Assembly: GCA_963678705.1 (NCBI GenBank)
Contig: OY783217.1
Coordinates: 5,642,001 to 5,706,000, forward strand
Source: Panorpa germanica
Lineage: Eukaryota > Arthropoda > Insecta > Mecoptera > Panorpidae
Direction: 5' to 3'
Length of the DNA: 64,000 bases
The notes under the pieces are model-generated. The model had not been told where the DNA came from. It did no database searches and saw nothing but the letters and a program-made list of their open reading frames with translations. The position numbers and the translations under genes were made by a program. Positions 11,961 through 45,460 of this stretch are shown one piece after another; within the stretch, counting starts at the first letter, position 1, and every line of letters starts with the position of its first letter.

Positions 11961-12770
11961 GTAATTTTTCAGTGTAATCTTAAAGCCTATATATCTAGTA
12001 AAATTTGCACTTAAATTGTAGATTGTTTTTGGTACCGTATTTTGTTAGGAAATTGTTATTTGAAGCTTTTTAATAAGTGCCCAATGGCATATTCTTTTTA
12101 AGAAAATATGTTACCCTCATTTTGCACTTTTTTGTAAACTTTAAATTAGTATAGCTAATTTTTGTGTTCTCTTACAAAGTGATTATTTTGCCTTGTGAAT
12201 ATTATCGTGTTTTATTTATTAAAATAACGTCCTATGTACTAGGATCGTAAAGGTAGATCAAAAAGATGACCAAAAATATATTAGGCGCAATTTTTTGATG
12301 AAAAATTAAAACGCCACAAATAATTCTAAACAACACTGTGTTTAGTATTATACATAATATATGTAATATGCATATGTAAATATGTATTTTGTTATTATAA
12401 AGATATTTTACATTTAAATTCTTTTTGTTTTGAATGTTACTTGGTACTTGTTTCTTATCATGAGTCTATCACGTGATTTTGTTTACATTTGGTGACTCGA
12501 AACATGGGTAAAGTACAATAACAAATAACACATGTTTCTTACTTTGGATTCGTTTATCAATTTATAATTCTTAATGAACAATACCAACGCTATTAAAAAA
12601 ATATACAAAGTGTAAGCTGTTTAATTATAATAAGCTATCATATATTATAATGTCCCAGGTGTATATTTATATTCTTATAGTCTTACTAGCGTTCATCCCC
12701 GTCGCAAAGCGACGTCTGTCTGTTATATGTGAATTGAATTTCATCTCAAATTTTAATTTCCTTTTTACCG

Positions 12771-13076
12771 TGACGAGATATTTCTACCGTAACGAGATAT
12801 TTTTTACCGCAACGAGATATTTTTACCGTGACGAGATATTTTTACCGTAACGAGATATTTTTACCGTAACGAGATATTTTTTACCGCAACGAGATATTTT
12901 TTACCGCAACGAGATATTTTTACCGTGACGAGATATTTTTACCGTAACGAGATATTTTTACCGTAACGAGATATTTTTTACCGCAACGAGATATTTTTAC
13001 CGTGACGAGATATTTTTACCGTGACGAGATATTTTTACCGTAACGAGATATTTTTTACCGCAACGAGATATTTTTA
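12771..13076. repeat. 19-20 bp tandem array, left arm
   Basis: About 16 copies of TTTTTACCGTAACGAGATA, with ACCGTGACG and ACCGCAACG variants; the ACCGCAACG version carries one extra T. This is the left-arm minisatellite of the palindromic element. Confidence 0.95.
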
Positions 13077-13653
13077 CATTTTATATTCTTTGCACAGTCA
13101 TTTTAATTTCGTATTTGTATTTTAAGAGTAAACCAATAATAGAAATGTTAGAGTTGAAAGGAAAAAGGAAAAGGAAATGCTCTGAATATAAATACCCTTC
13201 AAAGGATATCACATCCTGAATATGGTTTGTGAATCTCATATATTCATTTGTATAAGTATTTATTTATATTATACTTTTAGGGTCCTATTGCAGATGTTTT
13301 CCATGTAAAATTTTCATATTAATGTCCTTTTATTCTAACGAGATAACGGCGACAAAATGGCGGCATTTATTCTGTAATACATTTATGTATTGTATTGTAA
13401 ATATGAAAAATGATGCCAAGATATTTATATGAAATAAATACTTATACAAATGAATATATGAGATTCACAAACCATATTCAGGATGTGATATCCTTTGAAG
13501 GGTATTTATATTCAGAGCATTTCCTTTTCCTTTTTCCTTTCAACTCTAACATTTCTATTATTGGTTTACTCTTAAAATACAAATACGAAATTAAAATGAC
13601 TGTGCAAAGAATATAGAATAGAATGGAATATAATATGTAACGATGCCAACTTT

Positions 13654-13862
13654 CTCGTCACGGTAAAAATATCTCGTCACGGTAAAAATATCTCGTTGCG
13701 GTAAAAAATATCTCGTTACGGTAAAAATATCTCGTCACGGTAAAAATATCTCGTCACGGTAAAAATATCTCGTTGCGGTAAAAAATATCTCGTTACGGTA
13801 AAAATATCTCGTTACGGTAAAAATATCTCGTCACGGTAAAAATATCTCGTCACGGTAAAAAG
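13654..13862. repeat. 19-20 bp tandem array, right arm
   Basis: About 11 copies of the reverse complement of the left-arm unit (CTCGTCACGGTAAAAATAT and variants). The arm has fewer copies than the left arm, so copy number has changed independently since the palindrome formed. Confidence 0.95.
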
Positions 13863-13937
13863 GAAATTAAAATTTGAGATGAAATTCAATTCACATATAA
13901 CAGACAGACGTCGCTTTGCGACGGGGATGAACGCTAG

Positions 13938-14500
13938 TATAATTAAATAGCAACTAATTCTCTTCCAATATGCGCAAATGCCAACATAGTAGTTGTGTAG
14001 TTCAAATTAAATTTAAAAAAAAATCTTATTCGAAAATCGAAATTTACAACACTAATTTTCGAAGTAACAAAAGTTATATCGAAAATGTATTATACTGTTA
14101 TTTACAGCCCTAAATGTTTGTGACTTTTCTGTAATTTATATTCAATTATAATAGGAGTGTTTGTTAATAACCGATCGTCCTAGCCACTGAGGCGATGTCT
14201 GACTGGTCAATACTCAATAGACTAAGGTCTGTCTTATATGTAGTACGGTGAACCAACCACTACTGGTTCTCTCTAGACTTTATAAATTGACTTACTAAGG
14301 CACTGGCCACTAGTGAAGATAATATCATTTATTAATAAACCTCCAAAGCTACAATACGTGTATAATTAATACAATATTTTAACAACTTTATTTATACCAA
14401 CCGTCATACGAATACGAAATATTTTGTTGTTATCCTTCGATATGCAATAATTCAAAAATAAACAAAATTATGAATAAAATGTCTTTTGTGCTTATATGGA
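13938..14500. other. Intergenic DNA upstream of NFAT
   Basis: AT-rich with a moderately GC-balanced patch at 14165-14280 that shows no coding frame or recognised motif. Confidence 0.4.
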
Positions 14501-27000: not shown

Positions 27001-30000
27001 TTCTTGGTTTTCAACAAAATTTAAATCACGTTAATTTTCTTTTGAATTATTTTATATTAGCATCCACCAAATTAATTTTTTTCCGGCAAATTGGGTAAAG
27101 CGTACATTTCCAAAATTGCAATGGAATATATGAAGCATTAATTCGATGATATATATTTGTAAAACTACTAATTTTGGGACTGAAGATTTTATTTAAATTT
27201 CACATACAGACAATAATATATAAAGAAAAAGTATTAGTAGCCGATTTATATGAATAATTAGTATACACATTTAAACAAATATATAATAGTTAGTAACTTA
27301 TATTTAAATATTCAACGAATTTAATTTTTACTTTTTTGAATTATATTTTATTTAAAAACTTTTCTGATAATAATATTTTAATTTACTATTACAATTTAAA
27401 AAAAAGAATCCATCGGCTTTTTAATTTAAAAAAATTAATTTTCAATTTTTATCTTTGTGGTTATATTATCTTTTATTTTCATAATAATTATTATTGCTTC
27501 AGCGTTTTCTTCGTAGATGTGGTCAACGGGGCGATTTTCTCCATCTTCTGTTAATTTTCCCTTTCAGATATTGCAGCAGTCGACACCCCCACCTAATGCA
27601 AGGGCCATGACGCATACGTGGCGTGAATGTTTTTATGTGTCTGTTTGTTGCCTACCCAGAGGACTTACTTTATAAATTTTAAAAGCATCTCAAATAAAAA
27701 TCATAATTATCGTTATTTACAATATGCAGCCGTTTTTATGTTTCAATGTTTTATTTGAGTTTCATAAAGAAAAATGTTGTTTCTATTCTTGGTGCTATTT
27801 GATTTTTTGTTGTAAAGTTTTACAATTTGTTTAAAACATTTATTTCGTTTAATGAAAGTTCGTACTTCAAGTTTTATCTTATTAATTTAGTTTCTTGGAA
27901 TTTTAAAAGATGCTGGCGAAATTTATATCGTTTCCTCTGGTGTTTTTTCGTTCAAATAATTATTTCTCAATACTCTACTACAATAAATATATTTAGAGTA
28001 TTGTTATACAGACTGATTATTTTGAATGTTTTAAATTTATTATTTTACAAGTTGTTTTCTTGTATTATAATTTTTAACAATCTTTTTATTTTGGTTGCAG
28101 CTGAATAATTGACGCATGCGTTGTGGTCCGAGCTGCTTAATCCAGCGATTCGGTCAATTTTAAATAAAAAAAAATTGTGCAATGAAACCTGGTTTTTATA
28201 GAAGTTGTAAATAAAATTTAATTTTCTAAAATCAACGTCATAATTTATTTTATATCTTTTCGGATAAGGCTTTTGATATTTTATTTTTAATTTAGAGTGG
28301 CTTGTATTACAATTTAAATTTTAGGTTTATTTCTGTCTGTTTATTTTGTATTTCAAGGGTTGTATTCTGAACTTTTTATTCAAAACTTTTCTGGACAACT
28401 TGTTTAATATATTCCAACACCATTCTATCTTTCGGATAGTATTTTACATATATTTCTATATAACTATTCTGTGAAAGTTTCCAAATCTAGTTACAAATAT
28501 ATATTTTTTATAAAGTAATGCCTCAGTTTTTTTTAATGGACTATAAAGGAATACTGGATTAAGCAGCTGCTTCCCCGTTTCGTTTCAGTGACTTGTGTCT
28601 GCAGCTACAAGTATCTATGATTAAGTCAATAATACCATTTCCGTATCTAATCAATTTTATCTGCAGGATTGTCTGTAAGCGGAGATGCGATGACTCATTT
28701 AAATGGTCACTTTATGTCTGAAAAAATTCCGAGACCAGTTATGATGTGGACAACATCTGATATTAAACCAAAATCGGAATTAGACATGGACATGATGCCA
28801 CCACCGGCACCAATGGCGCTGCAAACCTTGACGGCGCGACGTCCTTCAACTACTGGTTTGATTCTCCCGGACCAACATTCGCCACCGCTGTTGAAGTCAG
28901 AAGCTATGGATGAAAGCAGTCAGGGATCAGAGAGTTCTTTCCAAATAAATAATGAAAATTCGATGGATATTCATCATTCAGATAGTATGGATAATATGAG
29001 CATCCAAAGACATAAATTAATGCGATTAGCAAATGAGAATAGTATGGATGTGGTACATTCAGAAAGTTCTAATATGTCTACAATTGTAAATGAGAATTCT
29101 ATGGATGCAATGAGATCCAACAATTTTATACAAAATACAGATTCCAGAAGCATGTCCAACATACAACAAATGTCGACCATTACATCTCAGATGATGCCGC
29201 AAGCAATGATTACGGATTCCCCAATATCACCAAACATGAATGCGCAGTTGTCACCGGCAGAACTAAAAGTTATTGATTTACGCATTAAGCCATCTGATTT
29301 GGCTCAAACTCAATCGCCATCTATGGCAACGCTGCGACATTTTGTTACGGATTCCCGGGATAATCCATTGCCTAGACAAACGGGGCAGAGTGTGGAGAAT
29401 TATTTGTCTAATCTAGAAACAGATGTTGCTAAATCGGTAATAGTAACCAACATGCTTCAGCCAACATCATCCATGCAATCTACACTAAGTCAGCAAATAC
29501 AAATACAAGCCTTTAATCAGTTAGCGCAGGCGCAGTCGGATATGATAAAAACGGACCAGATGATTGAATCTGTCACAGCAGCAATGTTTAACACACAACC
29601 AACTCAAAATTCTTCAACGGGAATGCTTTTCGGACAACAATCAAACATTGGATCTCAATTAAATCAAATGGTGCCTTCAGTTTCCCAAATGGAATTAAAC
29701 CAATTAAATCAACTAATGCCTTCACAGGACCATAATACAAATCTACTACCCACAGGGACCAATTTAAGTAAACAATATATCGAACAGACAATTGCTAATA
29801 ATTTAAGTGTAACAATGGCTAATAATTTATTATCTGAATCTCAAAATAGCCAACCAAGTTTAAGACAAATGTTAACTAAAGAAGCTGCAATGGCTATCGA
29901 TTCTGCAAATTCAAGCATGCAAAGATCGCTAGTAGGACTAGAAAATAATTTGCTAAACACCACATCGGCTACAGTAAAGTTAGATGCCTTAGTCAACTCG

Positions 30001-31488
30001 ACGGTTGACACACACATGCGCAACCCTCAAACCGTAACCTCGTTAGGAGTGAGTAACAATGGCACCGAGGATATTATAATGCAGCAATCTTCCCGCTTGA
30101 ATCAATCACTTTCATCACAGAGTCAATCACCGAATTCCTCAAACATACTACCAACTCATGCGAATGTGAATACAACCATCAGTCAGGATATCCTCTTAAA
30201 TTCACAGCCAGTCCCTCCCATGAATCATAATGAAATGATGTTATCCAATAATTCATCGTCTTCGTCAATAAGTAACAGCCCACCTGGTCACATGTCTCCT
30301 GATATCATCCTAAATCCTCAAGTATCACCTAGTGTTATGTGTCAAAGTGGAATTACAACTGAAAGTCTTCTTAACAACACCGTAGCGCAGCAAGCTTTGG
30401 ATAACCAAATGTTAAATGCAGCGTTAAATTTAAATGCGCAAGAGTCTATGCTAGCAGTATCAATGAATTCCATTATAAACAATACACCGATGGGACAGCA
30501 AGCTCAATCAGATAACATGCATATGTCTAATGTTATACAAAACGCACCATCAAATATGGTCAGCCCTACTCATAAAACACCACAAGTGGCAGTGAAAAAT
30601 ATGATTCTAAATGCAGCAGCTGAAATTCTCACATCGCAACAAGCTGCAACAGCAGACCCTTCAGAATCGACAATTAGTGCATTTGTAACATCTGCAATAA
30701 ACACGGTTCTAAATGAAAACGCGTCAGCAGCGCAACCAATGATCATAACCCAAGCACCATCGGTGCCACAAGCAGAGCTCCAGCAACAGACTGATCAACA
30801 ACGCATAAGCGATGCATTGTGTCAACCGAATCCTGTGTCTGCTATGGATCAACGTATGAATGAAATATTTGGTGCACCGGCAGGTTCCGGTTTGATGATG
30901 AACCAAACGGAGTCAAATGTCATTGCAAATAACGTTCATCAAATGTTAAATGTAGAAATGAATACGCAATCGCAAGCCCTTTTAAATAATGTGACGATGC
31001 CAAATATGGTTGACAATATTGTATCACAGATGAACGATAATAAAAATAATGTTGCAACATCTTTTATGTCAAATGGAAATCAATACTTAAGCGCACAAAA
31101 TAATCAAGCGATAAATGTGAATGTAATGCCATCACAACTAATTAGTCAAGAAATTAGACATGTTATGAATCAAGAGTTGCAAATGACTGCAGTGCCAAAT
31201 GAATTTATACAAAATGTTACAAATGAAGTAGTTGGAAAAACAGCTCAATTTGTAACGAACGAAATTCGTAATGTTGTAAACCAAGAATTGAGGGCTGCTG
31301 AAAATCACATGCCACAACAAGGGAATATAACGCATGACCTGAATGCGATGTCAGACAACGCATTGATTAACTATATAAATCCTAGTTGTTTCGATCAAAG
31401 TAAGTTATAATTACTTCAAATATATCCACATCATATTATTGAACATTTATTATAAAATGAATTTTATTTTTCAGTTCCTCTACAATAG
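17815..31488 (+). CDS. NFAT (NFAT5/TonEBP-like) transcription factor, 9 exons
   Basis: Rel-family transcription factor that binds DNA through its Rel-homology region and dimerises via a TIG (IPT) domain; acts in the nucleus. Exons: 17815-18092, 22974-23108, 23431-23698, 23770-23952, 24032-24188, 24922-25121, 25196-25367, 28667-31399, 31475-31488. All junctions keep frame, giving 1379 aa. Seen in order: basic PGK repeat (~27-47), NLS/SUMO-like patch (~108-122), DNA-contact loop [11 protein letters not shown] (192-202), RHR to ~340, TIG ~341-464, then a ~910-residue Q/N/S/M-rich tail. The [15 protein letters not shown] loop and the long Q-rich C-terminus match vertebrate NFAT5 better than NFATc1-4. 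No clear calcineurin PxIxIT docking site was seen, as in NFAT5. Role in osmotic stress is inferred from vertebrates; insect function may differ. Confidence 0.95.
19160..19265 (-). repeat. tRNA-like SINE-family copy
   Basis: In reverse complement the copy reads a B-box-like CTTCGGGTTCGTTCCCCGG followed by ACCAGAGTTATATTTTCTGG. It is matched by 11870-11960 and 9268-9302. Its presence inside NFAT intron 1 is neutral for the gene model. Confidence 0.55.
19537..19553. repeat. 17-base G homopolymer
   Basis: An uninterrupted run of 17 G in intron 1; the length may be unreliable as an assembly or sequencing matter. Confidence 0.9.
20973..21588. mobile_element. Inverted-repeat DNA transposon in NFAT intron 1
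   Basis: CCGATTACTTGCGACGTCGA at the left end is matched inverted by TCGAATGTCGCAAGTAATCGG at the right (about 21558-21583). The ~0.6 kb body has no ORF and includes the dispersed 'TATTAAAATTAAGAAC' repeat and T-runs (21277-21288, 21341-21358). Nonautonomous; superfamily not assigned. Confidence 0.65.
22974..23108 (+). CDS. NFAT exon 2, NLS/SUMO-like patch
   Basis: Acceptor TTTCAAAACAG|G, donor AAAGT|GTAAGT. Codes for [20 protein letters not shown] and on through [13 protein letters not shown] is a plausible nuclear localisation signal and IKIE fits the SUMO consensus (hydrophobic-K-x-E). Both are inferences from motif match; vertebrate NFAT5 also carries NLS and SUMO sites ahead of its Rel region. 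Confidence 0.92.
23431..23698 (+). CDS. NFAT exon 3, Rel-homology start
   Basis: Acceptor CTTGTTTCAG, donor ACAG|GTAACG. It codes for [19 protein letters not shown], then [20 protein letters not shown] and [26 protein letters not shown] is the recognition loop that contacts DNA in NFAT proteins, so the exon is the most diagnostic part of the gene. Confidence 0.97.
23770..23952 (+). CDS. NFAT exon 4, Rel-homology middle
   Basis: Starts [20 protein letters not shown] and ends [11 protein letters not shown] at donor AAG|GTAAGA. [13 protein letters not shown] is the conserved strand-loop of the NFAT Rel N-terminal domain. Phase 0 on both sides. Confidence 0.97.
24032..24188 (+). CDS. NFAT exon 5, end of Rel N-terminal domain
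   Basis: [20 protein letters not shown] then [17 protein letters not shown] and [12 protein letters not shown]. The basic KKKSTR stretch and MVFR strand are characteristic of NFAT5-type Rel regions. Donor TGCA|GTAAGT, phase 1. Confidence 0.97.
24711..24805 (+). CDS. Candidate alternative terminal exon of NFAT (intron 5)
   Basis: A good acceptor (pyrimidine-rich, ATGATTACAG) at 24710 is followed by 30 in-phase codons after exon 5 ([18 protein letters not shown]...) and then TGA at 24803-24805. If used with intronic polyadenylation it would end the protein before the TIG domain. No clear AATAAA follows closely. It could also be chance. Confidence 0.25.
24922..25121 (+). CDS. NFAT exon 6, TIG domain first half
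   Basis: [20 protein letters not shown] followed by [20 protein letters not shown]. The GxNF and K-D-T-x-V-x-F pattern is typical of IPT/TIG domains of Rel proteins, which make the dimer interface. Acceptor TTTACAG, donor CAG|GTACGT. Confidence 0.97.
25196..25367 (+). CDS. NFAT exon 7, TIG domain second half
   Basis: [20 protein letters not shown], then [21 protein letters not shown]. Ends TTTVHS with donor AGTG|GTATGT, phase 1. The following intron is 3.3 kb and holds several exon-like islands. Confidence 0.97.
25664..25692. repeat. 13 bp-arm perfect hairpin
   Basis: TAATATATAATAC and its exact reverse complement are separated by three bases. In an AT-rich intron, this may be a chance dyad. 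Confidence 0.6.
26338..26438 (+). CDS. Candidate alternative terminal exon of NFAT (intron 7)
   Basis: A strong acceptor (TGCTTTTCCCTTTACGTAG) precedes an island of about 50% GC. Read in the phase left by exon 7 it codes 33 residues, [20 protein letters not shown] then [13 protein letters not shown], and a TAG at 26436. The protein is leucine/charge patterned with a basic end, unlike random AT-rich translation. This would give a TIG-ending isoform lacking the Q-rich tail. On the opposite strand a B-box-like GGTCGAATC occurs, so a SINE remnant is a real alternative. Confidence 0.35.
27568..27596 (+). CDS. Candidate short alternative terminal exon of NFAT
   Basis: Textbook acceptor (TTAATTTTCCCTTTCAG) followed by in-phase DIAAVDTPT and TAA. 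The less AT-rich sequence continues to about 27660, and another frame there reads [17 protein letters not shown]. Either a poison/terminal exon or part of a longer unrecognised exon. Confidence 0.25.
28667..31399 (+). CDS. NFAT exon 8, Q/N/S/M-rich activation region
   Basis: Acceptor TATCTGCAG|GA; first residues [15 protein letters not shown] single 2733 bp exon, 910 codons open throughout, rich in Q, N, S, M and T with almost no aromatic residues. Repeats visible: NENSMD three times (near 28949, 29032, 29089), and near the C-terminus two copies of an EIR-x-V-x-NQEL helix (31151 and 31261). LKSE near 28893 is another SUMO-like site. Low-complexity glutamine-rich tails are the activation domain of NFAT5. 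Donor CAAA|GTAAGT leads to a tiny last exon. Confidence 0.96.
31475..31488 (+). CDS. NFAT exon 9, last four codons
   Basis: Acceptor ATTTTTCAG; splice completes an Ile codon and adds P-L-Q and TAG. If the intron is retained the frame ends at TAA 31408-31410 after S-K-L, so intron retention would change only the last residues. Confidence 0.85.
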
Positions 31489-33060: not shown

Positions 33061-33660
33061 ATTATTATTTTAATTAAATCTTAATGTCAAAAAAATTATT
33101 AAAGAAAACTGGTTGGTACATTTTGGAAACAAGGAAAGCTATTCCTTTTGTTCTCACTAGTAAATAAAGAAAAGAAATTGTATCTTTTTACTTATTCCTA
33201 TTTATTTTTTATTTGAGATACATTCATTTAAAAAGTTATGAAATATTAATAGACGCAAAAATATTAAAGATATTACAAGTTATTCAGGCGTTTCATATCT
33301 GCTAAAGTGCCATCTACTAACCAGTTACAGAATTACTACAGTTGCTAATAAAATTAACAGATGGCATATATAAAGAAATATTTTACGCCTGAACAAGAGC
33401 AAACCATCTTACACATCAGGAAGACAATATTCAGTATCGGCTAATATTTGAATGTTAATATTTTAATTTTAGCAAAAGTAGCATTTTCGTGATTTTAGAG
33501 ACGTAAGATGCAAGGCTGTAACCTTCTGAAAATTCAAGAAAAAGTAAGTTTTTCAATTTTAGCAAAAACAGCATCTTCGTGGTTTTTTAAATGTAACAAG
33601 GCTATTTAAATATAGTTTCTCGGGCTTCGTAGGCACGTAGCCTTTTATCGCCCCTAATAT
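33061..33660. repeat. Repeat-rich spacer with dispersed 87 bp-unit copies
   Basis: Blocks near 33465-33545 and 33555-33615 ('GCATCTTCGTGG', 'GTAACAAGGCTAT', 'CCTTCTGAAAATTCAAGAA') match the 87 bp tandem unit at 39275-39835. No gene. Confidence 0.65.
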
Positions 33661-34021: not shown

Positions 34022-35449
34022 ATTTAATTCTAAAAGTTTGTTTTAATATCCAATTTCAATTATAGTGTGGTTGAAACAATTTCCTTTCTTGCTCTTGCAA
34101 TTCAGGATTAGATAACACAATTTTTAACGAGAGATGATTTTTTTGTCTGTCTAATTTTAGATGAATATTTACATATGTTTTTCTAAATCACAGATGGCGT
34201 TAGCAACGCACTGTCTAATGAAAACTTATAAATATATTGTTAATTTATAATAAAAAAATCGATGTAAATATTAAATTTGATAATATGTGTCTGAAAATGT
34301 AATTACAATAGATGTAACATGTAAATAATTAGTTAAAAATTATAAAAATATCTAGACATATGTTAATAGTTAAACTAATACATGTTAAATTTCATTAATA
34401 TTGAACAAAGGTAATTCTTGTATTTCAATTTAAAAAGATATTAAATTGTACTCAATGTCTATAATATTTTATTCATTATAGCTTTTTCAAAATTACATTT
34501 TTGATTAACCTGTCAATTGGTAAATTATTCTGATTGCAACAATTTAAGTATGGATAATTATTTAAAGTGAACCTTTAAATTTGGCGAGCCAAAGGACTAC
34601 ACATTGTGGAATTCTAATTTTAATCAATTTCTTTTTCGCTTACAGTTGTGTCGAACTAGTAAACGAATAAACCATACTTAAATTAGTTGCACTCAATGCC
34701 TCTTTCAGAATCTCAATAAAAACCTGCAATTTATTTAGTTTGTAAATATATATTTTGTTATACCTTCCTTTACTATGTATATAAAATAAATTTGAAATAA
34801 AAAAAAATTCATAATTTAAAAAAATCTTCTTTTTTCTATGTAAGTTAATTTCCTTTTAAAATATTTTAATTTTAGAAAAAGCACTATCTTCTATCTTCTT
34901 AAAAAGCGAAGTTTCATCAGTGCGCCTGAAAAGAATGCAACTAAAGTAACACGGTCAAAATACTCCATAATAACCTTATGACATGTATAATATTTTAATT
35001 TTATTGTTCAAATTTTTTAAAGACGATGAAACAGTTCAATTTTTCTTACATTTCTTAGAAAACATGTAAATCTCTTATTTTTGAAACGAAACAAGCCTAT
35101 AACCTTCTTAAGTATCAAGAAAAAGTTAAATATTTCAATTTTTGCAAAAACAGCATCTTCGTGGTTTTAGAGATGTAAGAAGGCTTATGGACATCATTGC
35201 GCCTGACAAAACGGCAACATTATTTACGAGCAACATTACTAAAGCAACTAAATGAAAGTCATGAATTTTGCAATTATTTTGTGACAATATTTACACACTG
35301 AATATAACAACTAATATTTAAATATATATACGCTGTTTAATCACAATTAGCAATTAAAAATATAGGTTTTTTTTAAGTATATGTTACTTCTTTCCTTCAA
35401 AGTTAAATATAAAACTAATGGACAATTTTTTATAAAAAATTCTTTTTGA
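34022..35449. other. AT-rich spacer with scattered repeat copies
   Basis: Diverged single copies of the 87 bp unit occur near 34870-34930 and 35080-35190. Short 'CGCCTGA' boundary-like words recur around these copies. No gene seen. Confidence 0.5.
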
Positions 35450-38400
35450 TTCTTTGAAATTTTTTGATGCAGTTATGGTCGTTAGGATTTAAAATAAAGA
35501 ACTGCTTCATTACTTTTTGAATAACTACCAGTGTCTGGTTTTTATGCGACTTTTTTAAAATTCATGGACTTTTTTTTCTAAATTTTTTTTTTGATTCCTT
35601 GAAATGTTTTGATGCAGTTATGTTCGTTAGGCTTTAAAATAAAGAACCGCTTCATTACTTTTTAAATAACTACGATTTTCTCGCTTTTATGCGACTTTTT
35701 TAAAATTCATGGACATTTTTTTTCAAAATTTTTTTTTTTGATTCCTTGAAATATTTTGATGCAGTTATGTTCGTTAGGCTTTAAAATAAAGAACTGTTTC
35801 ATTACTTTTTAAATAACTACGATTTTCTGGCTTTTATGCGACGTTTTTTAAATTCATGGACTTTTTTTTCTAAAAATTTTTTTTAGATTTTATGAAGTTT
35901 TTTGATGCTGTTATGTTCGCTAGGCTTTAAAGTAAATAACTGCTTCATTACATTTTAAATATCTCCGCGATTCTGGCTTTTATGTGACCTTTTTTAAATT
36001 CATGGACTTTTTTTTCTAAAATTTTTTTTTTGGATTTCTTGAAATTTTTTGATGCAGTTATGTTCGTTAGGCTTTAAAGTAAATAACTGCTTCATTACAT
36101 TTTAAATATCTACGCGATTCTGGCTTTTATGTGACCTTTTTTAAATTCATGGACTTTTTTTTCTATAATTTTTTTTTTGGATTTTTTGAAATTTTTTGAT
36201 GCAGTTATGTTCGTTAGGCTTTAAATTAAAGAACTGCTTCATTACATTTTAAATATCTTTGCAATTCTGGCTTTTATGCGACCTTTTTTAAATTCATGGA
36301 CTTTTTTTTCTCAAATTTTTTTTTTGATTTCTTGAAATTTTTTGATGCAGTTATGTTCGTTAGGCTTTAAAGTAAATAACTGCTACATTACATTTTAAAT
36401 ATCTACGCGATTCTGGCTTTTATGTGACCTTTTTTAAATTCATGGACTTTTTTTTCTATAATTTTTTTTTTGGATTTTTTGAAATTTTTTGATGCAGTTA
36501 TGTTCGTTAGGCTTTAAATTAAAGAACTGCTTCATTACATTTTAAATATCTTTGCAATTCTGGCTTTTATGCGACCTTTTTTAAATACATGGACTTTTTT
36601 TTCTCAAATTTTTTCTTTGATTTCTTGAAATTTTTTGATGCGATTATGTTCGCTAGGCTTTAAATTAAAGAACTGCTTCATTACATTTCAAATATCTCTG
36701 CGATTCTGGCTTTTATGCGAATTTTTTTAAATTCATGGACATTTTTTTTCTAAATTTTTTTTTTGGATTTCTTGAAATTTTTTGATGCAGTTATTTTCGT
36801 TAGGCTTTAAATTAAAGAACTGCATCATTAGATTTTAAATATCTACGCAGGAACTCAAAAAAATGCATTGCTCTTCAAATCATAAAATTGAACCTTTTCA
36901 TCATTTTTAACAAGATTATAGTCTTCTTTCTATATGGAGATATAATATAAATTTCTTTTTGGATTTCTTGAAATTTTTTGATGCAGTTATGTTCGCTAGG
37001 CTTTAAATTAAAGAACTGCATCGTTAGATTTTAAATATCTAAGCAGAAACTCAAAAAAATGCATTGCTCTTCAAATCATAAAAGTGAACCTTTTCATCAT
37101 TTTTAACAAGATTATAGCCTTCTTTCATGACATACTCCGATAATGATATTTAATATATTGATGAAGAAGAGTATAACCTTCTTACTTTTCATAAAAAATT
37201 AAGAAAATATATGTTATTTTATAACGGATTTAACTTAATTTTGAATGCTGATTCTAAATTTGTAATTCATTTTTAAATAAGTATTTTAGTTTTTGATATA
37301 TCAATATATTAAATCTCTTTATCGGAGTATGCAATGAAAGAAGACTATAATCTTGTTAAAAATGATGAAAAGGTTCACTTTTATGTTTTAAGTTTCTGCG
37401 TAGATATTTAAAATCTAATGATGCAGTTATTTACTTTAAAGCCTAGCGAACCTAACTGCATCAAAAAATTTCAAGAAAACCAAAAAAAATTTTATATTAT
37501 ATCTCCATATAGAAAGAAGACTATAATCTTGTTAAAAATGATGAAAAGGTTCACTTTTATGATTTGAAGAGCAATGCATTTTTTTGAGTTTCTGCGTAGA
37601 TATTTAAAATTTAATGATGCAGTTATTTACTTTAAAGCCTAGCGAACATAACTGCATCAAAAAATTTCAAGAAATCAAAAAAAAAAATTTTAGAAAAAAA
37701 AGTCCATGAATTTAAAAAAGGTCGTATAAAAGCCAAAATCGCGTAGATATTTAAAATGTAATGAAGCAGTTATTTACTTTAAAGCCTAGCGAACATAACT
37801 GCATCAAAAAATTTCAAGAAATCTAAAAAAAATTTTTAGAAAAAAAAGTCCATGAATTTAAAAAAGGTCGTATAAAAGCCAAAATCGCGTAGATATTTAA
37901 AATGTAATGAAGCAGTTATTTACTTTAAAGCCTAGCGAACATAACTGCATCAAAAAATTTCAAGAAATCAAAAAAAAATTTTTAGAAAAAAAAGTCCATG
38001 AATTTAAAAAAGGTCGTATAAAAGCCAAAATCGCGTAGATATTTAAAATGTAATGAAGCAGTTATTTACTTTAAAGCCTAGCGAACATAACTGCATCAAA
38101 AAATTTCAAGAAATCTAAAAAAAATTTTTAGAAAAAAAAGTCCATGAATTTAAAAAAGGTCGTATAAAAGCCAAAATCGCGTAGATATTTAAAATGTAAT
38201 GAAGCAGTTATTTACTTTAAAGCCTAGCGAACATAACTGCATCAAAAAATTTCAAGAAATCAAAAAAAAATTTTTAGAAAAAAAAGTCCATGAATTTAAA
38301 AAAGGTCGTATAAAAGCCAAAATCGCGTAGATATTTAAAATGTAATGAAGCAGTTATTTACTTTAAAGCCTAGCGAACATAACTGCATCAAAAAATTTAA

Positions 38401-39062
38401 AGAAATCTAAAAAAAATGTTTAGAAAAAAAAAGTTCATGAATTTAAAAAAGGTCGTATAAAAGCCAAAATCGCGTAGATATTTAAAATGTAATGAAGCAG
38501 TTATTTACTTTAAAGCCTAGCGAACATAACTGCATCAAAAAATTTCAAGAAATCAAAAAAAAATTTTTAGAAAAAAAAGTCCATGAATTTAAAAAAGGTC
38601 GTATAAAAGCCAAAATCGCGTAGATATTTAAAATGTAATGAAGCAGTTATTTACTTTAAAGCCTAGCGAACATAACTGCATCAAAAAATTTCAAGAAATC
38701 TAAAAAAAATTTTTAGAAAAGAAAGTCCATGAATTTAAAAAGGTCGTATAAAAGCCAAAATCGCGTAGATATTTAAAATGTAATGAAGCAGTTATTTACT
38801 TTAAAGCCTAGCGAACATAACTGCATCAAAAAATTTCAAGAAATCTAAAAAAAATTTTTAGAAAAAAAAGTCCATGAATTTAAAAAAGGTCGTATAAAAG
38901 CCAAAATCGCGTAGATATTTAAAATGTAATGAAGAAGTTATTTACTTTAAAGCCTAGCGAACATAACTGCATCAAAAAATTTCAAGAAATCTAAAAAAAA
39001 TTTTTAGAAAAAAAAGTCCATGAATTTAAAAAAGGTCGTATAAAAGCCAAAATCGCGTAGAC
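35450..39062. repeat. 3.6 kb inverted array of ~146 bp units
   Basis: The left arm (about 35450-36850) is a head-to-tail array with GATGCAGTTATGTTCG recurring every ~146 bp. The right arm (about 37600-39060) is the same unit in reverse complement (CGAACATAACTGCATC), also every 146 bp, about ten copies each. A second unit (TCTTCAAATCATAAAA..TTTTAACAAGATTATAG) occupies the inner parts of both arms (36880-37140, 37320-37590), leaving a ~170 bp centre near 37150-37310. The right arm is more homogeneous than the left. No coding. Confidence 0.95.
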
Positions 39063-39274
39063 CAGTTACAAATTTAGGAAGACGAGGGTGGTAGGCCAAT
39101 GACAAAGTTTGTCTCTTTTCACGAATTGTGTAGACACACCTATCCAAACTATAGTCTCAAGACTTAACACAACCATTTGTATCTAAAAATTAATAACGTT
39201 CTGATTCATAAGTGATGTTACTTAGGTTGCATAATATTCAGGCGCAATAATTCCAGTAATTGCCATTTTTCCTT

Positions 39275-39835
39275 CTTAAAAATCATGAAAAATTCAATAT
39301 TTTAATTTTATCAAAAACCGAATCTTCGTGGTTTTTGAGATGTAACAAGGCTATAACCTTCTTAAATATCAAGTAAAATTCATTATTTTAATTTTAACAT
39401 AAACAGCATCTTCGTGGTTTTTGAGATGTAACAAGGCTATAACCTTCTTAAAATTCAAGAAAAAGTTAAGTTTTTCAATTTTATCAAAAACAGCATCTTC
39501 GTGGTTTTTGAGATTTAACAAGGCTATAACCTTCTTAAAATACAAGAAAAAGTTAAGTTTTTAAATTTTTTAAAAAATGGCATCTTCGTGGTTTTTGAAA
39601 TGTAACGAGGCTATAACCTTCTTAAAACTCAAGAAAAAGTTAAGTTTTTCAATTTTATCAGAAATGGCATCTTCGTCGTTTTTGAGATGTAACAAGGCTA
39701 TAACCTTCTTAAAATTCGAGAAACACTTTAACATTTCCATTTTTGTAAAAACAGCATCTTCGTAATTTTTGAAATGTAACTAAGCTATATTTAACCTTCT
39801 TAAAATTCAAGAAAACGTTTAATATTTTTATTTTT
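39275..39835. repeat. 87 bp tandem array
   Basis: GCATCTTCGTGGTTTTTGAG recurs at 39321, 39407, 39494, 39581, 39668 and 39755, spacing 86-87 bp, with GGCTATAACCTTCTTAAA in each unit. At least six units; degenerate at both edges. Open frames crossing it are artefacts of the repeat. Confidence 0.93.
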
Positions 39836-41845
39836 TTTTAGCAAAAATAGTAGCTGGATAGTGTTTGAAATGAAGTAATGATGTAATAATTAAATACTTT
39901 GTTTTTGTTATTAGGATGAAACAAGAATATAACCTTCTAAAACAGCACAGAAAAATAAACGTTTTTAATAATCATCATATTATTTCTTAGTAAAACATTT
40001 AAGTTCAAGTTAAAATATTTTTAATCATTTATAAATGTTGTAGTACATATGTTATACATTTCTTATGTCTATTTTAAATAAATCTACTTGAGGTAGGTAG
40101 GTACGGTAGCTATCATTGTTTTAATTTTAAAGTTACTATTTATGAAATAGAGTTGAATAAGCAGTAATTTTGTTTTTGTATGTGCAAAAAATAGAAAAAA
40201 CACGGAAAAATGGTCTTAAAAGTAACTTATAACAAGTTAAACATTCTTAAATTGTGTTTTTTAAATTTAATTTGACGCCTAAAATTACGAAACATTTCTT
40301 ACTTGCTGTTTTCGCCATCTAGTAATAGATAGACTAACTAATTCTAGTTCAAATATTCAAACCATTATTTATTTCTGGATTTACTTAAGAGATGGCAGTT
40401 ATTTTTTGATAGCAAATATTTAAACCTCTATAATAATTTACAAAATATAGTATTATTAGTGAATACTCACATATGATAATGATACTCCAATAATTAATAA
40501 ATTGTATTATACTATTTTAATATATTTATATATAAATTATTTTACACATATCTTGTACAAGTCTTACGTAAAGATTCTATATACTACAATTATCCAACTA
40601 ACAATACCGTTTATTGCTGAGGTATTTTATTGCTATTCGAATTAATTAAATAATATAAAGATTGAGTAAAGATTTTAATTTTAATTTATCTGTATCAGAG
40701 TTCATAATTGTTCTCCTTAAGAGCAGCCAATTTCCAAGTGTTCTAAAACTATTTATATTACTTCTTATAAGTATTTCTTATAAGCTGAATACTTCTTTGA
40801 TAAATATTCTCTAATTTCTTAACTGATACAGATGAAATAGAACATATATATTATGTATACAGAAATTGAGTCGAATATAAATTTACATTATATACTCGCT
40901 AAACAAAAGTATGAATATTACCTTAATCACTGTCAACACTTTACTTAAACGAAAGCTTTAAATATTCTAAAGATACAACAGGTCACTTTAAAACTAGAAT
41001 AAAGCCAAATGTATTTTTATGACTGCATATAACTATGATTAGCGAATAATATAAGTGTACTAAAGAAATATTTAAAAATCATTCAATTCGTAAAATTCAT
41101 AATATTTCTTTTTACTATTCTTAATATTTTGCATTCTAACAAATATCACAATTAATTGCTTATTGTATATTTAATTAATAATAAAACTACTAATACTATT
41201 CTTATTTCTTTTATCAGTTATTTAAGATTTGACAAAAGTCTCAAAAGAAATAAAAAGGCTTAAAAATATAAATGCCTGCTAAAGATGACTAGATTAAAAT
41301 CACCATATTAAAGAATTAGTTCCATAATTAGTACTATATTTTATGTTAATAAGTAAATCATATTTTAATGCTTAAATTTTCTGTGCTATGAGTGCGAACC
41401 TGAAATTGGCAGCACCGCAAGAAAAGGTGATGGTTTGACTAGATACAATTGATTTCGAATGTACATAGTGCAATAATGTTAAGGTTAAGCATCACTCTGC
41501 TACAGTCCTTGCTCAAAATAGTAATCAGAATATAGCACTATCTATATACAACTAAACTAAAAACATAAAACTATTTTGAAGTAATTAATTTTAACGCGTC
41601 GAAATCAAAGAAAATTAAGAAATACACATTTCTGGAATTGATTTACAATTTCTTAAATATTGGACGCAAATTTCGAGTGATTTTATTTCTGAATTAGTGC
41701 TGAATCAATTTATTTGATGTAAATATTTTGCTTTATTCTATAACTAAAAAGTTATATAGAACTCTAGTGTTTTCTATAATTAAAAGGCTAAATTATCTTC
41801 TTCTTGTCTTATAAAATTTTAACATGGATCGGCCTTAAATATATC
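39836..41845. other. Spacer and 3' flank of Oli
   Basis: AT-rich with no coding signal. The minus-strand 3' UTR of Oli must lie in the right-hand part. TTTATT words (AATAAA on the minus strand) occur, for example near 41685, but none can be chosen as the site. Confidence 0.45.
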
Positions 41846-45120: not shown

Positions 45121-45460
45121 CTAGCATTTACCCCGTCGCAAAGCAACGTTTGTTTCATATACAGGGGTCGGCGCTCGAAGTGTTATTGTCTATTTTGATT
45201 TCTTTTATTTAAAAACTTTAGTATATTGTAAAAACTAAATACTGTTTACCCCTCTTAATAGTTGCATTGAACCCAATTTCTGAAATTTTTCCTTCAAGGC
45301 ACACAACGCCGATTGTTGATCTAGTGGAAATGGAAATCTGGGAGTTGATGAGCAAGATGAGCTATGGTGAAGATAAATCGATAACGATAATTTTTTTCCT
45401 GCATCATAGATGGCAGCACTCACTGTACTAAATCCATCTCGACAGCTAAGGCATGTCCCG
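45121..45460 (-). mobile_element. Helitron-like 3' terminus (single copy)
   Basis: CTAGCATTTACCCCGTCGCA, with hairpin CGTCGCAAAGCAACG at 45134-45148, is the same terminus as both ends of the 12686-13937 element, and it too is preceded by A. Read on the minus strand it is hairpin, ~13 bp, CTAG and host T, as in Helitrons. The far end is not found; 45460 is a guess. The minus-strand frame 45423-45235 carries no recognised domain. Confidence 0.6.

Follow-up and report, generated by a model that had tools for sequence, protein, structure and literature searches.

What kind of mobile element carries a Helitron-type 3′ end on each side, and does it move as such a unit? The question is raised by a locus in the window, the 64,000-nucleotide stretch of Panorpa germanica DNA analysed here (C14:5642001-5706000 of a 464-Mb assembly), where an earlier note had described a near-perfect 1.25 kb palindrome bounded by two such ends, with host A and T outside. 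Two facing copies of a 76-bp end do occupy 12686-13937, each with CTAG, 10 nt and the hairpin CGTCGC-AAA-GCGACG that the note had reported (12686-12714 and 13909-13937), and each is followed inwards by a 19-bp minisatellite and then by a unique arm. The 20-base 3′ end has an expected chance occurrence of 0.00. Folded as single-stranded DNA and compared with 200 shuffles, the two hairpins gave z scores of -2.60 and -3.02, with 2 and 0 shuffles as good. The palindrome itself stood in part. The inverted unique arms (13078-13265 and 13432-13619) are 188 nt long, match at 99% and are separated by a centre of 166 nt, but the minisatellites, present in both arms as described, are unequal in length (316 bp on the left, 209 bp on the right), and a stretch of about 40 bp that separates minisatellite from arm on the right, and likewise in L009 and L014, is absent on the left.

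The left border proved to lie elsewhere. On the outer side of the left inverted 3′ end we observed a Helitron-type 5′ terminus of 48 bp, A|TCATATATTATAATGTCCCAGG..., preceded by host DNA. Base 12685, the A that the earlier note had assigned to the host, is the last base of this mobile head and the host A is 12637, while the T at 13938 is host as proposed. The head motif TATTATAATGTCCCAGGTGTAT at 12643-12664 is the sole match in the window at 3 mismatches, and the head is similar to those of L011 and L023. A TC-starting head block directly outside an inverted 3′ end is present in 12 of 40 loci, the window included (39 were fetched, of which L019 and L047 overlap, and the 12 were picked by hand). 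Across these the motif begins 35 to about 131 bp from the inverted 3′ end, with two heads in a row in L012, and without exception the head meets the inverted end precisely at A|CTAG. An A precedes the TC in 12/12 and the DNA farther out differs between the loci; therefore the mobile unit in the window is A(12637)|TC...CTAG|T(13938). The left 3′ end is internal, because the TC terminus stands 48 bp further left, and the proposal that this copy is bounded by two 3′ ends and moves as such had to be given up. The element looks palindromic because a backward copy of the tail sits just inside the head. Joined without the element, its host flanks read AAGCTA^TATAATTAAA. The parts are as follows.

12638..13937, + strand: whole element, 1300 bp, A(12637)|TC...CTAG|T(13938)
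12638..12685, + strand: Helitron 5′ terminus (head), 48 bp, TCATATATTATAATGTCCCAGGTGTATATTTATATTCTTATAGTCTTA, of a type known from other Helitrons of the same genome
12686..12761, - strand: internal inverted copy of the 3′ end, CTAG at 12686-12689, hairpin at 12700-12714
12762..13077, + strand: left 19-bp minisatellite, 16.4 units
13078..13267, + strand: left unique arm
13268..13431, + strand: central spacer, found in other copies too
13432..13619, - strand: right unique arm, inverted copy of the left unique arm
13653..13861, - strand: right minisatellite, 10.9 units
13862..13937, + strand: working 3′ end, hairpin at 13909-13923, 10 nt, CTAG at 13934-13937, then host T

We consider it likely that 12638-13937 is a small, non-coding, non-autonomous Helitron, a rolling-circle element, of the canonical type, whose 3′ end recurs, inverted, 48 bp inside the head, and within this account as a whole the left 3′ end is probably a passenger that faces the wrong way to terminate transposition. 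An ordinary Helitron head would then be hidden behind the palindromic appearance. The features of canonical Helitrons are in place: a 5′ TC after host A (in the window and 11 sister loci), a hairpin shortly before a 3′ CTRR followed by host T, insertion at A^T without duplication (from the empty sites of sister copies, below) and no terminal inverted repeats, since the inverted copy starts 48 bp inside. Helentrons, or Helitron2 elements, follow a target rule different from that of canonical Helitrons. With its TC and CTAG termini and A^T insertion the window element does not belong to that group, which has asymmetric terminal inverted repeats and other termini and targets.

The earlier note had called for a genome search for copies with the same two termini, allowing that the palindrome might otherwise be an assembly artefact. 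Searching with the whole element gave at least 165 matches. A pattern search for the 3′ end with at most one mismatch returned 70 ends, 35 per strand, and a control pattern 0. Of these ends 38 face a partner less than 4 kb away, giving 19 pairs; the other 32 are without one in that range at one mismatch. Among 15 of the 32 that we fetched, two (L068 and L074) lie opposite a more divergent end, with 2 or 6 errors. An artefact at a single place is unlikely, because the 19 pairs stand at separate places in the assembly and their arms differ by indels. The base after the 3′ end is T in 68 of the 70 (A in L068, C in L070), as expected of the Helitron-type ends that the note had recognised; the loci behind these flank counts supplied all 70 ends, L001-L008 having been left out of one step. 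No match to one 21-base end pattern was found in viral contigs. The window also holds a second, related Helitron-type 3′ end at 45121-45161, in reverse orientation (CTAGCATTTACCCCGTCGCAAAGCAACG), TA-flanked and with an imperfect hairpin, for which no 5′ end was found.

Both outer dinucleotides of the window element are TA, as at the end at 45121, which would fit a TA-duplicating palindromic MITE of the Tc1/mariner type. However, among the 68 T-flanked ends the next base is A in only 44 (T in 11, C in 11, G in 2), so that 24 show no TA, and clean empty sites without duplication exist; we regard a MITE as extremely improbable, and the note's own worry that all copies might show TA or longer duplications did not materialise. 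Foldback elements make a target duplication of 7-9 bp; no long duplication is visible by eye in the flanks of the window element. Gap-free alignments to related empty sites exist for L014 (at L020 and at L042) and for L042 (at L015). The L032 site, in L030, aligned with a single 1-base gap that is not at the join, and the right flank of L030 covers both L014 flanks side by side, a third empty site for L014. In the L020 site, in L015, the join falls within a TA run and carries a 14-base gap, which blurs it. The empty sites of L014, L032 and L042 are without the head, which makes A|TC and CTAG|T the borders. In these sister copies TC...CTAG units have inserted cleanly between A and T with no duplication, as the earlier note had supposed of the insertion site.

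How did a backward tail come to lie inside a head? We sorted the 19 pairs into classes by hand. Nine have a head just outside (L014, L018, L020, L025, L028, L032, L034, L042 and the window). In seven a CTAG directly adjoins another Helitron's head or falls within the first bases of that head (L010, L013, L016, L023, L029, L040, L046), one pair lies 20 bp behind another Helitron's 3′ end (L044), and two have host DNA on both sides (L030, L036). Heads of the window type are recurrent targets: heads occur right inside heads in L012, L016 and L021, and inverted family-B ends lie in heads in L009, L013, L015, L031 and L040. In L013, L016 and L040 a 3′ CTAG stands directly before another Helitron's TC head, and these CTAG|TC joins look as in tandem copies or joined-end circles. 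One-tailed longer copies with a different head also exist, L019 starting A|TCCTATATTATAATGTTCCAACTG. These longer copies and both ends of L036 and L044 carry the variant 37T, the window lineage 37G, a split suggesting more than one origin of two-tailed units. The 19-bp minisatellite also forms arrays without any 3′ end at L043 966-1434 and L045 1001-1604; there the repeat has either left the Helitron or lost it.

The best account of the window element, and one that we think probable, is the capture of a head by backward insertion. The 48-bp head would match in type that of a second Helitron, Y. Backward insertion at A^T, in an AT-rich repeat of Y's head, would have placed there a piece whose outward 3′ ends belong to the window family, and transposition from Y's TC to the first forward hairpin-CTAG would then have made head and two-tailed body one mobile Helitron. 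We infer this order of events in part from L034, where a two-tailed unit lies inside a head and the remainder of that Helitron follows, with its own 3′ end at 2414 (2 errors). Joined at the CTAGs, the L034 flanks align without gaps to L011 (181 nt at 93%), an alignment that is soft because the insertion site is a microsatellite. L034 presumably retains the earlier state: transposition that began at its head and ended at the first forward tail would produce an element of the window type. In the reconstructed Helitron Helraiser the hairpin is a terminator, in accord with such a stop (PMC4778049). The same logic, with the orientation changed here, appears in a report on chimeric Fusarium Helitrons from self-insertion, where transposition from the outer 5′ end to the first 3′ end is proposed to yield new Helitrons; those chimeras have two 5′ ends and one 3′ end, whereas the window type has one 5′ end and two opposed 3′ ends (PMC5148889). 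The family would thereby offer a concrete path for the swapping of heads and tails between Helitrons via backward self-insertion.

Alternatively, a one-tailed Helitron might have become palindromic as it replicated, by turn-back synthesis or template switching, or the palindrome might have grown by gene conversion between the arms, with no insertion involved. The two ends of a copy resemble each other more than they resemble those of other copies (sum 35 against a shuffled mean of 45.7, p 0.012, 19 copies), a value that rests on few variants and keeps the outlier L034 (distance 16). L028 has a private variant common to both ends, and L036 is palindromic over almost its whole length (851 nt at 96.7%, 218 nt at 98.2%). 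The inverted unique arm of the window copy resembles an extension of the usual shorter arms, a right arm after the spacer being present in this copy only (0 of 22 other spacer-bearing sequences compared). The exact A|CTAG join in all 12 head-bearing loci fits integration rather than a random turn-back point, and we hold an origin of this kind to be unlikely. Palindromic arm lengths do differ greatly among copies and the ends within copies are closer; thus gene conversion or turn-back synthesis may reshape the arms after an insertion of the kind that we favour.

The two pairs with host DNA on both sides, L030 (C8:16360804-16361683) and L036 (C7:18338002-18340073), raise a second alternative. 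Each has an A to its left and a T to its right and, judged from 4 kb of flank per side, a Helitron 3′ end at either terminus. Within that distance we found no convincing head, two matches in the right flank of L036 having 2 mismatches and no TC context, and only 26-36-nt matches to Helitron bodies. In L034 a two-tailed unit lies within the head of a different Helitron. What transposes at these three loci may be a unit that has two outward 3′ ends but lacks a 5′ terminus, which keeps the earlier reading alive for them. It is conceivable, though doubtful, that such units insert at A^T independently, RepHel mobilising opposed 3′ ends alone, and that their landing in the head repeats of other Helitrons, whose heads they took over, gave rise to the window element and its sisters. 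That the window copy is itself such a unit, moved alone and lying inside a solo head fragment, seems quite improbable: the head moved along in its sisters, the empty sites of L014, L032 and L042 being without it, and in the Helraiser account deletion of the left terminus abolished transposition (PMC4778049). The host TTA before the CTAG of L030 could also reflect a microhomology deletion of a head, and the head may have been lost later at both loci. If L030 and L036 moved headless, the 5′-terminus rule of Helraiser would be broken; such headless-looking loci make the need for a 5′ terminus testable. As they stand, the two would have terminal inverted repeats, unlike the canonical Helitrons, to which we assign the window element.

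Which proteins would move it? RepHel genes are numerous: a search of the genome with the PF14214 profile gave 150 scored matches among 893 candidates, and matches in 0 of 14 control genomes. L062 has a 1489-aa open frame with Helitron_like_N and PIF1, then GCGGACGAAGTCGCGGGCAAAAGCTAG|T, and L063 ends ...CGCCGGGTCAGCTAG|T (read by eye). Their tails end GGGCAAAAGCTAG|T (L062, 6660-7000) and GGGTCAGCTAG|T (L063, 6334-6700), and in these two RepHel loci the design, again by eye, is that of the window tail: hairpin, GGG, a short spacer and GCTAG|T. The window-type head is in neither, and the head and tail of the window element are in none of 12 short RepHel loci (1.5 kb each side); both results speak against a direct link. 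Acting in trans, RepHel proteins of this genome would probably mobilise the window Helitron.

The window element shares with the canonical Helraiser and Helibat type the TC start and CTAG end, a hairpin close to the 3′ end (10 nt before CTAG here, 11 nt before the end in Helraiser) and, across the family, A^T insertion without duplication and joined CTAG|TC ends; unlike these it has no coding capacity and carries an inverted 3′-end copy and a minisatellite just inside its head (PMC4778049, PMC5876387). Inverted repeats of related kinds are already in print (PMC3422177). Maize Heltirs, as cited there, have inverted repeats resembling Helitron 3′ ends, as in the window family, but the left repeat of the window copy is not terminal, its terminus being TC, and L030 and L036 come nearer to the cited description. 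The ATon elements of Aedes aegypti share inverted repeats, AT insertion and, in ATon-I, stem-loops near both ends. Their repeats are terminal, their length is below 500 bp and TC occurs in only 8/26 families; in the window element the TC head lies outside the repeat, so that the left repeat is 48 bp inside rather than flanked by the A. Among the titles and abstract openings listed in literature searches, none described a TC head with an inverted tail directly behind it.

Several other features were noted. Near 1836 in L016 lies a stretch that resembles a mariner transposase start; a 32-aa piece had 0 Pfam and 0 PDB matches, so we do not claim the identity. The sole ORF of at least 150 aa in the window (28669-31410, + strand) encodes 913 aa rich in N, Q and M, with 0 Pfam families. 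At 35410-39061 a 3.6-kb inverted array of mirrored tandem units of about 147 bp, about 88% alike, forms a palindrome far larger than the one at 12686-13937. An 87-bp tandem repeat follows at 39271-39872, with single related units at 33451-33605 and 35078-35185.
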